A stretch of DNA of 64,000 bases from Fibrisoma montanum (GTDB taxonomy: Bacteria; Bacteroidota; Bacteroidia; Cytophagales; Spirosomataceae): assembly GCF_003583365.1 (NCBI RefSeq), contig NZ_QXED01000012.1, positions 1 through 64,000 of the forward strand, read 5' to 3'. The translations under genes and the position numbers were made by a program. The notes beneath the pieces were generated by a model. The model had not been told where the DNA came from and ran no database searches. It saw only the letters and a list, made by a program, of their open reading frames with translations. The number at the start of each line of letters is the position of its first letter. Within the stretch, counting starts at the first letter, position 1. Shown one piece after another: positions 1 to 22,101 of the stretch.

Positions 1-124
<124 letters not shown>

Positions 125-3448: not shown

Positions 3449-5257
3449 TTAATTAACCGTATCTCCTCTGAGCGTTCTGAACCGTTTGCGTGCTTCAGCT
3501 CCATAAATACTTCCTGGATACTGAGTTAACACTTTCTGATAGGCATCCATCGCGGCAGCCTTATCTTTCAAACGCTCCTCGTAAATTTTTCCCTGGGTAA
3601 ACTGAGCATCGTCTCCGAGAATATCATACGGATACGTTGCCGTTATCTTTTTTAAATCTTCAAGTGCTTCGTCGTTTTTGCCTTGTTTCAAAAACGTATT
3701 TGCGCGCAGCCACAGAATCTCATCTGCCAAACTGTGGCCTTCAAACGTTTTCAACATTTGATTCAACTTATCCACAGCCTCATCGGTCTTGTTCTGGAAA
3801 AGCAGCAAATCTATGGATGCATATTCACGCATGGCTGCTTCGGTACTATCCATGCCTGTGTTATCCACAATCAACAGGCTTAATGATTCAGCGTCGTTGG
3901 CAATTTCCCGGGACGTAGCGAGCTTTAGAATATCAAGCAACTCCTTGGACAGGGTAAACTCACCTTTGTAGTAGTGAAGTTTAGCATTTTTCAGTTTTGC
4001 TTCGTAGCCCAGAAACTCTTCCTTTTGAGACTTCTCGACCTGCGAATACAGCAACGTAGATTCCCAGGGTTCGCCCTTCAGGAGATAGATATCACCTTTA
4101 TCCAGTTTACACCGATCGACAAAATTCTTGTCGGTCTTACCCAGATCCACAGCAAGATCCAGAACCGTTAGCGCTGTATCCTTGCTGTCGAGGTAATAGG
4201 CGTACAGGTTTGCCGTACTACGTAAGGCCTCCAAAGTTTTGTTATTGGTGCCAATTTCCTGTAGCATTTTCTGGTAGTCGCTGATCAGCTTCCGGATTTC
4301 AAGCTTATCGACAGGAAATGTGTTTTTAACCTGCTCCTCCCGGGCGTTGATTACCAGCCGTCGGGCAAAAGGATATAGTTGTCCTTGTGGATAAGTCGTG
4401 ACAATGTATTCAAAAGCTTCGGCCGCGGTCTTGTATTCTTTATTATTCAATGCTACCATGCCCAGATCATACACTCTCCCACCATTCAGTTTTAATCGTT
4501 TGTCGGTGGCTTTCTCCTGTAGCAACGCCCGGCTGAATTTTTGCTTCTGGATAAAATACCAGATCAACAGTTCGTTGTAAGCCAGTTCCCCGGGCTCTGC
4601 CTGAATTTTGGTGTACAACGCTTTTTCTATCAGTGGTTCGTCTTTCGTATTCAGATACCCTTGAAGTGCTGCCAGTACCGTTTCTTTTTTGTCAGACTGC
4701 TTACTGGTGTTGATTGCTTCGTCGATTGCTTTTTCTGTCTGGCCGGTGGCTTTGTACAACGTCATTAATTCGCTGCTGTACGATCCGGATTCTTTGCTGA
4801 CCTCCCGTGCCATTTCAAGCGATCGGATCGCCCAGCGGTTCTCCCCTAGCTCTACAAAGGCATCAGAAATTTTTTCCAGCTTTGGTATAGACGATTTGGC
4901 GGATTGCAGTGCCTGTGTGTATTGGCTCTTCGCCAGTGTGGTGTCGCCCTGCTGGCTGGCCAGCTGTCCAGACAACAGGGCATAGTACGCCCGGTTCGCT
5001 TCATCGGCCTTTTCCTGTTTACGCAGGAACTTGACTGCCTCATCGGCTTTGTTGCTTTTCTGCAAACTGTACATGTAGCGTGAGAGCCGCAGCCAGTTGA
5101 CCTCCGTTTTTAACAGCTTGCTGTATTCGTTCGCCGACTTTTCAAATTCGCCCGCCTTGAAATACTCGTCAGCCAGGGTTGCCCCACTTTGCGCGATACT
5201 CTGCCCCACAAACGTTAGCCACGTTAACAGAGTAATGATCGTTGCTCTATTAATCAT
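3449..5257 (-). CDS. secreted or periplasmic tetratricopeptide-repeat protein
   Basis: A 602-aa protein with an N-terminal signal peptide (hydrophobic ITLLTWLTFVGQSIAQ, likely cut after about residue 22) followed by TPR-type helical repeats over nearly the whole length, e.g. ADEYFKAGEFEKSANEYSKL near the start and FTQGKIYEERLKDKAAAMDA near the end. TPR arrays in envelope proteins usually scaffold protein complexes. No catalytic domain is seen, so the function is unknown. The coding sequence carries three exact TTATCCACA boxes (see the origin entries), unusual for a coding region. It ends at the terminator shared with thrC and starts right at the gene-free AT-rich stretch. Confidence 0.8.
   Translation of the reverse strand: MINRATIITLLTWLTFVGQSIAQSGATLADEYFKAGEFEKSANEYSKLLKTEVNWLRLSRYMYSLQKSNKADEAVKFLRKQEKADEANRAYYALLSGQLASQQGDTTLAKSQYTQALQSAKSSIPKLEKISDAFVELGENRWAIRSLEMAREVSKESGSYSSELMTLYKATGQTEKAIDEAINTSKQSDKKETVLAALQGYLNTKDEPLIEKALYTKIQAEPGELAYNELLIWYFIQKQKFSRALLQEKATDKRLKLNGGRVYDLGMVALNNKEYKTAAEAFEYIVTTYPQGQLYPFARRLVINAREEQVKNTFPVDKLEIRKLISDYQKMLQEIGTNNKTLEALRSTANLYAYYLDSKDTALTVLDLAVDLGKTDKNFVDRCKLDKGDIYLLKGEPWESTLLYSQVEKSQKEEFLGYEAKLKNAKLHYYKGEFTLSKELLDILKLATSREIANDAESLSLLIVDNTGMDSTEAAMREYASIDLLLFQNKTDEAVDKLNQMLKTFEGHSLADEILWLRANTFLKQGKNDEALEDLKKITATYPYDILGDDAQFTQGKIYEERLKDKAAAMDAYQKVLTQYPGSIYGAEARKRFRTLRGDTVN
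3768..4394. other. three exact DnaA boxes inside the TPR coding sequence
   Basis: The exact consensus TTATCCACA occurs at 3768-3776 and 3861-3869 on the plus strand, and as TGTGGATAA at 4386-4394. The 9-mer is expected about once per 131 kb on both strands in random sequence, so three copies in 630 bp is a marked excess close to the candidate origin. Confidence 0.55.
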
Positions 5258-5747
5258 TTTATAATTAATGTCTTTAAAAGAAACGTTATTATAATCATTA
5301 TGGGTGTGGAAATGTGAACAAATATGTTGTCCACTTATTTTCCAACCCTATGTGGACAATTCTCAAGTCTTATCAACAGCCCCGTTCACGGTTATCCACG
5401 CGTAATTTATTATCGATTAGCTAATTAACACTTTTTCCACAGTTTTGTGTTGATCTCTCTGTGGGTTTGTGCGTAATTATTTCCCACAGCTAACACTATG
5501 GAAATTGTGTTACAATTTTATTCATAACGTCCAGTTTATTCTACAGCTGCCGGCCTTATATTGGCCATTGTTAATAACCTATTAAGTAGTCAACATTGGT
5601 GCTGGACGTTGTTCACCTGTTTTCCACTTAATCTTACTACTTATTCACAGGGTTATTCACACAATTATTTCACTTTTTTAATTTAGGATTGACCTTTTTC
5701 CTATTCTTCAAAAAAGCCTCCCTTTTCAGGCTTTTTACCCATCTCAG
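5258..5747. other. oriC: candidate chromosomal replication origin (oriC)
   Basis: A gene-free AT-rich stretch of about 490 bp. DnaA-box-like 9-mers: TTGTCCACT 5327-5335, TGTGGACAA 5351-5359, TTATCAACA 5370-5378, TTATCCACG 5392-5400, TTTTCCACA 5433-5441, TTTTCCACT 5620-5628, and TTATTCACA twice at 5641-5649 and 5653-5661 (12-bp spacing). Weaker copies lie at 5305-5321 and 5609-5617. T/A-rich tracts (5662-5705 and 5281-5300) could serve as unwinding elements. mnmG (gidA), a classical origin neighbour, is 0.9 kb away, a near-parS site is 2.8 kb away and recF lies within 17 kb. dnaA itself is not in the window. The call rests on motif density and context, not on a computed skew. Confidence 0.65.
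5711..5736 (-). terminator. terminator after the methyltransferase gene
   Basis: Inverted repeat AAAAAGCCT / AGGCTTTTT (5711-5719 with 5728-5736), 8-nt loop, followed on the minus strand by a T-rich tract. It lies 11 nt after the stop of the minus-strand gene at 5748. Confidence 0.75.
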
Positions 5748-6623
5748 TTATTGGAAAATATAGATCAGGCTTGAGTAGTCGCCCGACTGCCTTGCTTTGC
5801 TGTTCGACTGCAAGCCAATCCGAACGCTTTTGAGGTAATCTGTAGTGCCGGTTTGATAACGTGTACTTAAAAGGCCAATGTAGAATGCGTCGAAGAGCAT
5901 CGGTTTTTTTTCGACCAGTTTTAAACCATGCTTTTTGAAAAGAGCCTCAATGGTTCTTGGGGTGAAGTGGTACAAATGTCTGGGAAGGTCATAAGCTGCC
6001 CAAAATTGATTGAAGTACTTAGCGTCGAACGAGTCGGAGTTTGGTACTGCTATCACAATGGTGCCTTTATCAGCAAGCAGCGATTTAAGAACCTCTATTG
6101 TGTGGTTAAGTTCGGAGACATGTTCGAGAACATGCCACATTGTGATAATGTCGAACGTTGTTTGGTTTGCCAGTACATCCAGCGACGGCTTTATTTCATC
6201 CCCTAACTTCTGGACTGCAATGGCTCGTGCGTCTTTATCGGGTTCGGTGCCACTTACCGACCAGTCACCCTTTTTGCACGTTTCAAGAAAAGCGCCGGTT
6301 CCACACCCAACATCAAGAATACGGCCTGGTTTTTTATTCAGCCTATTTACCAGGGAAAGCTTAGTACCAAGCGTGTAATTTCTAACCAGTCGATAACCCG
6401 AATTAATTAAACCGGCTCCTGAATCATTGTGGGAGACGTAATCAGCCGATTTGTAATAGTTTCCAATGACGTCAGCTTCCGGCCGCGGATTCGTGAATCT
6501 AAACCCACATTGCTTACATTGCTGGATATTGAATGGTTCTTCGCTGACCAGATAATCTGTACAGGTAATAAATGACTCGAATTGCCCACTTTCACAAATC
6601 GGGCATTGCGTTAGTGTCTCCAA
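5748..6623 (-). CDS. class I SAM-dependent methyltransferase with N-terminal zinc ribbon
   Basis: A 291-aa protein. The N-terminal CPICESG and CKQCGF pairs (residues about 8-40) form a zinc-ribbon-like knuckle, as in Methyltransf_23-type enzymes that act on sugars or envelope glycans. The Rossmann core follows with SAM motif I ILDVGCGTGAF (about residues 102-112), the acidic TEPD motif II, and a WHVLEHV segment typical of the family. The substrate cannot be read from sequence. It is the last gene of the minus-strand run with mnmG (33 nt away) and is followed by a terminator. Confidence 0.75.
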   Translation of the reverse strand: METLTQCPICESGQFESFITCTDYLVSEEPFNIQQCKQCGFRFTNPRPEADVIGNYYKSADYVSHNDSGAGLINSGYRLVRNYTLGTKLSLVNRLNKKPGRILDVGCGTGAFLETCKKGDWSVSGTEPDKDARAIAVQKLGDEIKPSLDVLANQTTFDIITMWHVLEHVSELNHTIEVLKSLLADKGTIVIAVPNSDSFDAKYFNQFWAAYDLPRHLYHFTPRTIEALFKKHGLKLVEKKPMLFDAFYIGLLSTRYQTGTTDYLKSVRIGLQSNSKARQSGDYSSLIYIFQ

Positions 6624-6656: not shown

Positions 6657-8513
6657 CTACCGACCCATATAGACGAGTAAAATTGAAATATCAGATGGGC
6701 TTACCCCACTGATTCGTGAAGCTTGACCTATTGTTGCCGGTTTCAAGCGTTTTAGCTTTTCCCGGCCCTCGTATGATAATGCCTTTAGGCGGTCATAGTC
6801 AAAAGCCTGATTGATCTCCAGCTCTTCCAGCCGATTCAGCTTTTCAGCGTTTAATTTTTCACGGCTGATATAATCTTCGTACTTAATTTCAATGACAGCC
6901 TGCTCAAGAATTTCTTCGCTCACGTTAAACGAAGAGTCCTCCCCTAGCAAAAAGCGGACGTCATTCTGATCGATCTCAGGCCGTTTTACTATTGTGTACA
7001 AACTGGTTTTTTCCCGAAGTAGCGCACTACCTTTTTCTAAAAGCCACGGATTGACAGCCTCTGGCTTATGCTTCACTGCTTTTATGGTATTCAGTAGTGA
7101 AGCAATACCTTCGCGCTTTTCTTTCATTTTTTCATAGCGTTCGGACGATGCCAATCCGATGGCATACCCTTTTTCCGTGAGTCTAAGATCGGCATTATCC
7201 TGACGTAGTAAGGTCCGGTATTCAGCGCGCGAGGTAAACATCCGGTATGGCTCCTCGGTCCCTTTCGTAATTAAATCATCGACAAGAACACCCATGTATG
7301 CCTCTGATCGCTTGATTACAAAATTTTCCTGTTCGTTAATTACGCGATGAGCGTTTATGCCCGCCAGCAAGCCCTGGCAGGCTGCTTCTTCGTAGCCTGT
7401 AGTTCCATTGATTTGACCGGCAAAGAACAGGTTACTCACTAATTGGGTCTCAAGGGTATGGTTTAGCTGGGTTGGTGGGAAGTAGTCATACTCCACGGCA
7501 TACCCTGGCCTGAACATTCGAACATTTTCGAAACCCGGGATTCGTTTCAGCGCATTGTATTGTACGTCTTCCGGCAATGACGTTGAAAATCCATTTACAT
7601 ACACTTCGACGGTGTCCCACCCTTCTGGTTCGACAAAGATTTGATGCCGATCCTTATCAGCAAACCGATTGATTTTATCTTCAATGGAAGGGCAGTATCG
7701 CGGACCGAGACCTTTGATTCGGCCTGTGAACATAGGCGATTTTTCAAAGCCGGTTCGAAGCACATCGTGTACGTCGTCGCTTGTATAGGTTATCCAGCAG
7801 CTACGTTGTTTCGATAGAGCTTGGGTATTGAGGTACGAAAAACGGCCTGGATTTTCATCACCCGGCTGTTCTTCCATGGCGTCGTAGTTTAGGCTGCGAC
7901 CATCCACACGCGGTGGCGTACCTGTTTTCATTCGACCCGCTTCAAACCCAAGTGAAACTAACTGTTCTGTTAGACCGGTTGACGCTCGCTCAGCGGTTCG
8001 TCCGCCACCGAATACTTTATCGCCGATAAACATCTGGCCGTTCAAAAACGTACCGTTTGTCAGTACGACTGCTTTGGCAGTGAAGCTTATTCCCAACGCG
8101 GTTTTAACACCTACTGCTCTTTTATCAGCAATAAGTACTTCTTGCACCGTGTCTTGCCAAAAATCAATATTTGAATTTTGCTCGAGCGTTTTACGCCATT
8201 CCCATGCGAAGAGGTTTCGATCGCTCTGGCACCGTGGGCTCCACATAGCTGGGCCTTTTGAGCGATTCAGCATACGAAACTGAATCATGCTCTTATCGCT
8301 AATGATGCCCGACATTCCGCCTAATGCATCGATTTCGCGAACGATCTGCCCTTTGGCTACCCCACCCATAGCCGGATTGCAGGACATCTGGGCTATGGTT
8401 TGCATATTCATTGTAATGAGCAGGACCTTTGAACCCATTGTTGCGGCCGCGTGTGCAGCTTCACAACCGGCATGTCCTGCCCCTACTATTATCACGTCGT
8501 AACTCAAATGCAT
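6657..8513 (-). CDS. mnmG: tRNA uridine-5-carboxymethylaminomethyl(34) synthesis enzyme MnmG (GidA)
   Basis: FAD-dependent enzyme that with MnmE installs the cmnm5 group on the wobble U34 of several tRNAs. Dinucleotide-binding motif [14 protein letters not shown] at the N-terminus, the [14 protein letters not shown] and GTFLNG family signatures, a C-terminal helical MnmE-binding part ending [15 protein letters not shown]. The open frame extends to a GTG at 8540, but ATG at 8513 gives 618 aa and the normal MnmG start (a few residues before DVIIVGAG). The GTG lies inside a parS-like palindrome and is unlikely to be used. mnmG beside a DnaA-box-rich region is a classical origin arrangement. Confidence 0.95.
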
Positions 8514-8532
8514 TTTTGTATTTTTTATAAAA

Positions 8533-8548
8533 TGTTTCACGTGGAAAC
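8533..8548. other. parS: parS-like ParB binding site
   Basis: TGTTTCACGTGGAAAC matches the first 14 of 16 bases of TGTTTCACGTGGAACA, one orientation of the well-known ParB site, and contains the core CACGTG. It lies just upstream of mnmG and about 2.8 kb from the candidate origin, where parS sites usually cluster. No parA/parB gene is in the window. Confidence 0.55.
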
Positions 8549-21057: not shown

Positions 21058-22101
21058 CTATTCCGTAAGATACGGATAATCTTTCTGGACGTACACATCT
21101 TTAAACGCTTCGTCGGGCGAAGGATACGGCGACTCCTCCGCAAACTTCACGGACTCATCGATAATACCTTTTATCTTCTGGTCAATGGCACTCAGTTCAT
21201 CTTCTGAAGCAATACCCTGCTCAAGGATGCGTGCTTTAACCTGCTCGACCGGGTCGCGCTGCTTATACTGCTCAACCTCTTCTTTCGTACGGTATTTCTG
21301 CGGATCGGACATGGAGTGACCGCGGTAACGATACGTACGGAACTCCAGATACGTTGGTCCTTCGCCGGCCCGGGCCCGCTCAGCAGCCCGGCTAACGGCT
21401 TCGTAAACCGCTTCAACGTCCATAGCATCAACCGGCTCCGAAGGCATATCATACGCTTCGCCGAGGGTGTACAGATCCGTTACGTTCGACGTACGGGCCA
21501 CCGATGTACCCATGGCATACCCGTTGTTTTCTACCACAAAGATTACGGGCAGTTTCCACAGCATCGCCATGTTGAAGGCTTCGTGGAAAGCACCCTGCCG
21601 TACGGCTCCATCGCCCATGAAGCAGATGCACAGGTTCTGCGTCTTGTTATACTTTTCGGCGAAGGCAATACCGGCACCCAGCGGAATCTGACCGCCCACA
21701 ATGCCGTGGCCGCCCATGAAGTTTACGGACTTATCAAAGATGTGCATGGAGCCGCCTTTACCCTTCGACGAGCCGGTTTGCTTGGCAAACAACTCAGCCA
21801 TTACGGCTTTCGGGTCAGAGCCCAGAGCAAGCGGGATACCGTGGTCGCGGTAAGCTGTAATCCATTTGTCATCTTTGGTCAGGGCAGAGCAGGCACCTGA
21901 TGAAGCAGCTTCCTGACCGATGTATAAGTGGCAGAAGCCACGAATTTTTTGTTGTCCGTAAAGCTGGCCGGCTTTTTCCTCAAACTTCCGCTGCAACTGC
22001 ATGGACTCGTACCAGTACATGTACCGCTCTTTAGGATGCTGGGTTTTAGCGGCTGCGGGCTTGTTATTAGTTTGTTTTGCTTTCTCTTTGACGCTTGCCA
22101 T
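21058..22101 (-). CDS. pdhA: pyruvate dehydrogenase E1 component, alpha subunit
   Basis: TPP-dependent E1 alpha subunit that decarboxylates pyruvate for acetyl-CoA synthesis. TPP/Mg motif GDGAVRQGAFHEAFNMA to VVENNGYA (about residues 170-202) and the phosphorylation-loop-like YRYRGHSMSDP are present; 347 aa from ATG 22101, the usual size. The open frame continues to 22128, but the extra nine residues precede the more likely start MASVKEKAK. The N-terminus is Lys/Ala-rich. The beta subunit and E2/E3 genes are not adjacent, so the subunits must be encoded elsewhere. A branched-chain 2-oxoacid E1 is less likely. Confidence 0.9.
   Translation of the reverse strand: MASVKEKAKQTNNKPAAAKTQHPKERYMYWYESMQLQRKFEEKAGQLYGQQKIRGFCHLYIGQEAASSGACSALTKDDKWITAYRDHGIPLALGSDPKAVMAELFAKQTGSSKGKGGSMHIFDKSVNFMGGHGIVGGQIPLGAGIAFAEKYNKTQNLCICFMGDGAVRQGAFHEAFNMAMLWKLPVIFVVENNGYAMGTSVARTSNVTDLYTLGEAYDMPSEPVDAMDVEAVYEAVSRAAERARAGEGPTYLEFRTYRYRGHSMSDPQKYRTKEEVEQYKQRDPVEQVKARILEQGIASEDELSAIDQKIKGIIDESVKFAEESPYPSPDEAFKDVYVQKDYPYLTE

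Follow-up and report, generated by a model that had tools for sequence, protein, structure and literature searches.

The 490-bp non-coding gap at positions 5258–5747 is predicted to be the chromosomal replication origin (oriC) of this genome, of the DnaA-dependent kind; taking the evidence as a whole, this is its best explanation and we give it a probability of about 93%. The window analyzed here covers 64 kb at the start of contig C3 (154,974 bp), and the genome, of 7.79 Mb in 39 contigs, belongs to a relative of Fibrisoma (Spirosomataceae, Bacteroidota). A candidate chromosomal origin beside mnmG had been proposed in the sequence-only reading, and this proposal is supported by the density of DnaA boxes in the gap, by the conservation of the box array and by the GC-skew switch found in relatives. 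The long gene-free region described there was recovered, as the gap is the longest stretch free of ORFs of at least 90 aa within 1–16 kb, and so was mnmG close by. The gap is bordered by a TPR-repeat protein gene and a SAM methyltransferase-like gene, with mnmG lying beyond the latter and all three genes on the minus strand (Table 1). The G+C content is 0.44–0.46 over the first 10 kb of the window versus 0.48–0.60 beyond, and thus no part of the 64 kb is richer in A+T than the neighbourhood of the predicted origin.

Table 1. Features in and around the predicted origin. Box conservation was scored over the full alignment against 21 relatives; "kept" means at most one mismatch to the DnaA-box motif unless strict is stated.
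Feature	Position	Strand	Remarks
16S rRNA gene, 5' end, at the contig end, directed away from the gap	1..123	-	RF00177
TPR-repeat protein gene, borders the gap	3449..5257	-	PF13432 and others
AT-rich block at the gap end opposite the T-rich block	5256..5300	no strand	holds the least stable 40-mer, 5256-5295; conserved
Candidate oriC, non-coding, 14-site DnaA-box array	5258..5747	no strand	34.7% G+C
DnaA-box-like ATTTCCACA (1 mismatch)	5305..5313	-	kept 21/21
DnaA-box-like TTGTTCACA (1 mismatch)	5313..5321	-	kept 18/21
DnaA-box-like TTGTCCACA (1 mismatch)	5351..5359	-	kept 16/21, strict 15
DnaA-box-like TTATCAACA (1 mismatch)	5370..5378	+	kept 9/21, weakly conserved
DnaA-box-like TTATCCACG (1 mismatch)	5392..5400	+	kept 18/21
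DnaA box TTTTCCACA	5433..5441	+	kept 21/21, strict 19
DnaA-box-like TTACGCACA (1 mismatch)	5468..5476	-	kept 16/21, strict 11
DnaA-box-like TTTCCCACA (1 mismatch)	5480..5488	+	kept 13/21
DnaA-box-like TTATTCATA (1 mismatch), not conserved	5518..5526	+	1/4 aligned without gaps, F. limi
DnaA-box-like TTATTAACA (1 mismatch)	5569..5577	-	kept 16/21
DnaA-box-like TTTTCCACT (1 mismatch)	5620..5628	+	kept 19/21
DnaA box TTATTCACA, pair with 12-bp spacing, first copy	5641..5649	+	kept 21/21, strict 17
DnaA box TTATTCACA, same pair, second copy	5653..5661	+	kept 20/21, strict 14
Candidate unwinding element next to the box pair, T-rich, TTTCACTTTTTTAATTTAGGATTGACCT	5662..5700	no strand	conserved in the 22-row alignment
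DnaA-box-like TTTTACCCA (1 mismatch), probably chance	5733..5741	+	0/9 aligned without gaps
SAM methyltransferase-like gene, borders the gap	5748..6623	-	PF13489
mnmG (gidA)	6657..8540	-	PF01134
parS-like site at the start of mnmG; minus-strand reading of 8534-8548, GTTTCCACGTGAAAC	8533..8548	-	3 mismatches to TGTTTCACGTGAAACA

DnaA boxes were defined by the motif TTWTNCACA, a perfect match being called strict and a match with at most one mismatch relaxed. The window holds 11 strict boxes versus 4.97 expected, a number attained by one of 100 shuffles, and eight of the 11 are found at 2.0–5.7 kb, three of them inside the gap. The many DnaA-box-like 9-mers noticed beforehand amount to 14 relaxed boxes in the gap versus a background mean of 0.64 per 490-bp window, scanned in 447,278 overlapping windows over C3 and 15 samples taken from contig C34, together about 455 kb of the 7.79 Mb. 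Windows clear of the gap carry at most five relaxed boxes, on C3 and likewise on C34, and those C3 windows with at least 12 start only between 5160 and 5351, which makes the gap the kind of dense non-coding DnaA-box cluster by which an oriC is recognized. The two TTATTCACA copies 12 bp apart and the TTTTCCACA copy that had been pointed out are present at 5641, 5653 and 5433, respectively. The gap could be viewed as nothing more than an AT-rich promoter of the TPR gene in which boxes arose by chance, as its G+C content and the conserved AT-rich block near the start of that gene would allow; yet none of 1000 composition-matched first-order Markov shuffles of the gap attained 14 relaxed boxes (mean 2.4), none of 1000 attained its three strict boxes, and the boxes are conserved along the gap as far as the methyltransferase end, so we find this explanation hardly credible at all. 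Three perfect TTATCCACA words were also detected within the TPR gene (3768–3776, 3861–3869 and 4386–4394); codons may account for them, though they lie near the predicted origin.

The array itself is shared by relatives. The gap is 81% identical across 444 bp to its equivalent in a genome of the same genus (G001), and the array is recognizable in all 21 relatives of a 22-row alignment (our sequence and 21 named relatives), from which three close loci, L027, L028 and L029, were left out because their cluster sits farther from mnmG. Of the 14 boxes, ten are each retained in at least 16 of the 21 relatives, one in 13, one in 9, and the last two lack conservation; these counts are not independent, since some relatives are near-duplicates of one another. 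The gene order mnmG, methyltransferase, gap, TPR gene is found in 20 of the 21; in the remaining one, whose contig ends 2.7 kb past mnmG, no TPR ORF is listed. In all 24 loci whose MnmG is at least 72% identical, the densest 500-bp window holds 10–26 boxes and starts 955–2489 bp past mnmG, whereas the other 50 of the 74 named loci (MnmG at most 69% identical) have at most nine boxes per 500 bp and none reaches 10. Thus, the conservation expected of an oriC is observed in 21/21 aligned relatives and in 24/24 close loci versus 0/50 distant ones. Moreover, when strict boxes were counted over 200 kb around mnmG in the complete genomes G088 and G005, the top window (five boxes) was the equivalent gap, the runners-up having two and three. 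One of the 24 close loci (L077, NZ_JAPQNS010000024.1) is titled Flavobacterium sp. SUN052, with an MnmG 77% identical and an unchanged gene order; the record may be misnamed. The exact box pair TTATNCACANNNTTATNCACA, of which there is a single occurrence in the 7.79-Mb genome, was rejected as an origin marker, being absent or elsewhere in nine of 14 family genomes: it lies near mnmG in G001, G005, G088 and G061 (one of the two G005 copies being elsewhere), all of its copies lie away from mnmG in G026, G047 and G107, and six of the 14 genomes have none.

GC skew was determined from 20-kb samples of six family genomes (G005, G088, G107, G072, G026 and G021), out of ten with a single contig, with 20 samples each for G088 and G005, ten each for G107 and G072, and two samples set beside mnmG by design in every one of the six. 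All 20 samples of G088 are signed for an origin at 1.10–1.12 Mb (mnmG at 1.105 Mb), 19/20 in G005 for one at 6.60–6.64 Mb (mnmG at 6.626 Mb), 10/10 in G107 for 2.02–2.06 Mb (mnmG at 2.038 Mb) and 9/10 in G072 for 2.86–2.92 Mb (mnmG at 2.886 Mb), the intervals being this narrow because two samples were deliberately placed at mnmG. In G001, where the gap lies at 1.794 Mb, all 12 samples that start short of 1.80 Mb have negative skew, and the four beyond it (one of them 7 kb long) have a skew of zero or above. A skew switch within about 20 kb of mnmG is therefore seen in five relatives, G001 and four of the six complete genomes. The fit in G026 is weak, its best interval being 2.86–3.40 Mb versus mnmG at 2.781 Mb, with −0.008 and −0.006 in the samples beside mnmG, and the samples of G021 gave no clear solution. 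G026 and G047, both of genus g26, carry the box pair away from mnmG on their contig C1, and one G026 copy, at 2.970 Mb, falls inside the best skew interval of that genome; the origin may have been relocated there. Clusters of DnaA boxes are also contained in the datA and DARS sites of E. coli, and the gap might likewise serve DnaA titration or reactivation without being an origin. Yet it is located where the skew changes sign on the large scale in five genomes and is the sole dense cluster in the part of its own genome examined (about 455 kb of 7.79 Mb), and such a role is very improbable.

At closer range, the local minimum of cumulative G−C lies at 21,803 in our window, at 1.1251 Mb in G088, at 6.6410 Mb in G005 and at 1.8108 Mb in G001, that is, 16–22 kb past the gap on the mnmG-upstream side in all four genomes examined closely. 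The check by skew minimum that the sequence-only reading had suggested, applied to relatives and to our contig, agrees with the gap in the large-scale switch of the five relatives, while the local minimum is displaced and G026 and G021 are weak and uninformative, respectively. The similar offsets could mean that true initiation takes place 16–22 kb to the right, near the minimum (about 21.8 kb), the array being a DnaA-binding regulatory site, and the genes from mnmG to mfd would then be co-directional with replication. However, no box cluster is found there, with at most two relaxed boxes per 490 bp at 15–26 kb of our contig, and the genes between gap and minimum are mostly on the minus strand, with the minimum within about 5 kb of the first turn in gene direction (our genome, G088 and G005), so that coding bias can shift it. 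Between gap and minimum, the fourfold-site skew of minus-strand genes (0.053 in G088, 0.020 in G005, 0.061 in G001 and 0.077 in our genome) is intermediate between the two arms and the non-coding skew (0.020 in G088, 0.033 in G005 and 0.019 in our genome) is positive but within error; skew alone is thus compatible with an origin lying rightward of the gap by as much as about 22 kb. We consider initiation at the minimum quite unlikely. Given this offset, the skew fixes the neighbourhood and the conserved box array fixes the gap, which would be the origin, the displaced minimum presumably reflecting coding bias.

The dnaA gene, which often serves to locate bacterial origins, is not adjacent, as had been stated. 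It is located on a separate contig, C34, where 14 of 15 samples have positive skew with no sign change at dnaA, and where no pair of strict boxes within 500 bp was detected in the 80 kb around the gene (C34:640,001–720,000). An origin at dnaA was rejected on this lack of a strict-box cluster together with the lack of a skew switch. The distance between dnaA and mnmG is 1.2–1.6 Mb in the six complete relatives. Two of the complete records, G021:C1 and G072:C1, begin at dnaA, and the estimated terminus of G072 (0.08–0.46 Mb) is close to the record start. The accompanying statement that this arrangement is that of many Bacteroidota holds for the remoteness of dnaA, reported for Bacteroidetes (PMC4755523), but a dense array beside mnmG is confined to the closest 24 of the 74 loci.

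The parS-like site that had been claimed is well conserved but scores weakly. With three mismatches, which 29 of 100 shuffles also attained, it is no close match to TGTTTCACGTGAAACA; canonical parS TGTTYCACGTGRAACA at no more than one mismatch has no site across the whole genome, and the 15-mer form at no more than two mismatches shows no enrichment (13 sites genome-wide versus 12 for the reversed control). Of the 20 named relatives listed, 19 have GTTTCCACGTGAAAC directly before mnmG and the twentieth has it on the opposite strand. Allowing one mismatch, 10 of 14 genomes carry the word at the start of mnmG, four of them, from three other genera, in the form GTTTCCACGTGGAAC, and it is missing there in G034, G061, G021 and G072. 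Twelve of the 17 matches in the 14 genomes fall within about 10 kb of mnmG and the other five all have one mismatch, the reversed control giving 10. The site at the mnmG start is conserved and near the predicted origin, as expected of a parS, and it is the only position special for this word. One ParB-like gene over the cut-off exists in the genome (TIGR00180), whose product would bind the putative parS. A second exact copy of the word was observed about 10 kb away on the opposite strand at G005:C1:6637388-6637402 and G088:C1:1116663-1116677. As for the nearby rRNA operon, the 5' end of a 16S gene was indeed identified. On the same side and strand, G088 carries 5S, 23S and 16S genes and both G001 and G005 carry 23S and 5S genes, directed away from the gap in these three genomes as in ours. 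No rRNA was found by Rfam in L020 and L022, both with runs of N on that side, and 17 of 19 early-ending loci stop 6.6–7.1 kb past mnmG, most of the ends being 16S-like by eye.

Two low-stability blocks, 5256–5295 and 5653–5692, are candidates for an AT-rich unwinding element beside the boxes, the latter being the second least stable among separate 40-mers of 5201–5800. The block at 5256–5300 may be the TPR gene promoter or another unwinding site. DnaA-trios were scored in 21 sequences (RudMAG was left out) over one 60-base stretch of one strand with no shuffle control; runs of two triplets were obtained in 18 of the 21 and of three to four in the other three, with no long run in that stretch. 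Reading the mechanism from this anatomy, an array of about a dozen boxes would be bound by DnaA, which would oligomerize toward the same-direction boxes at 5641 and 5653 and open the T-rich block beside them (about 5662–5700), where helicase would be loaded and from which forks would depart in both directions, initiation thus taking place at the gap. Perhaps, though this is rather doubtful, the architecture of the Spirosomataceae origin is a distinct one, in which some ten conserved boxes in a fixed array feed the 12-bp-spaced pair and a near-invariant TTTnACTTTTTTAATTTAG block, opening takes place with no long DnaA-trio runs, and the mnmG start bears an asymmetric parS variant specific to the lineage.

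These results offer a precise and testable origin for a family whose records may begin at dnaA (two of six complete relatives), far from the apparent start of replication, and the footprint of 22 sequences points to the boxes and the block worth mutating. In the unwinding module of the B. subtilis type, DnaA boxes are followed by DnaA-trios; the gap is similar in having two boxes and then a T-rich stretch, but differs in that the single stretch scored has no long trio run. Our literature search, made mostly at the level of listings, returned no description of a Spirosomataceae origin, and it returned nothing on DnaA-trios in Bacteroidetes origins.

A large distance between oriC and dnaA is common among Bacteroidetes, and the oriC of Prevotella intermedia OMA14 (PMC4755523) resembles the gap in its multiple DnaA boxes at a skew transition with dnaA remote. 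Origins adjoining mnmG were predicted by Ori-Finder in the Flavobacteriaceae, namely in Mariniflexile litorale (PMC11278836) and Algorimicrobium (PMC12843772); these belong to the same phylum and agree with GC skew, yet they are software predictions in another family, and the likeness to the gap is drawn from their position beside mnmG. The record of M. litorale begins at dnaA, which is not aligned with the skew, the labels in the figure legend being reversed relative to the text (PMC11278836). Since dnaA-remote and mnmG-linked origins have already been predicted in Bacteroidota, the gap is a further, well-footprinted example of a type that is not new. Positions assigned to origins from parS and skew sometimes differ from that of dnaA (PMC10197239), and gidA-adjacent origins with the canonical palindrome are reported in Bradyrhizobiaceae (PMC2275245). 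Replicative plasmids carrying oriC have been described in Cytophaga hutchinsonii (PMC5288383), a member of the same order in which the chromosomal origin is used on plasmids; a small origin fragment could similarly serve for replicating plasmids here. Finally, the oriC of E. coli and Yersinia, located between gidA and mioC (PMC10225481), is like the gap in lying near mnmG/gidA and in its DnaA boxes; unlike there, a methyltransferase-like gene separates mnmG from the gap, a TPR gene lies on the opposite side and mnmG is transcribed toward the gap.
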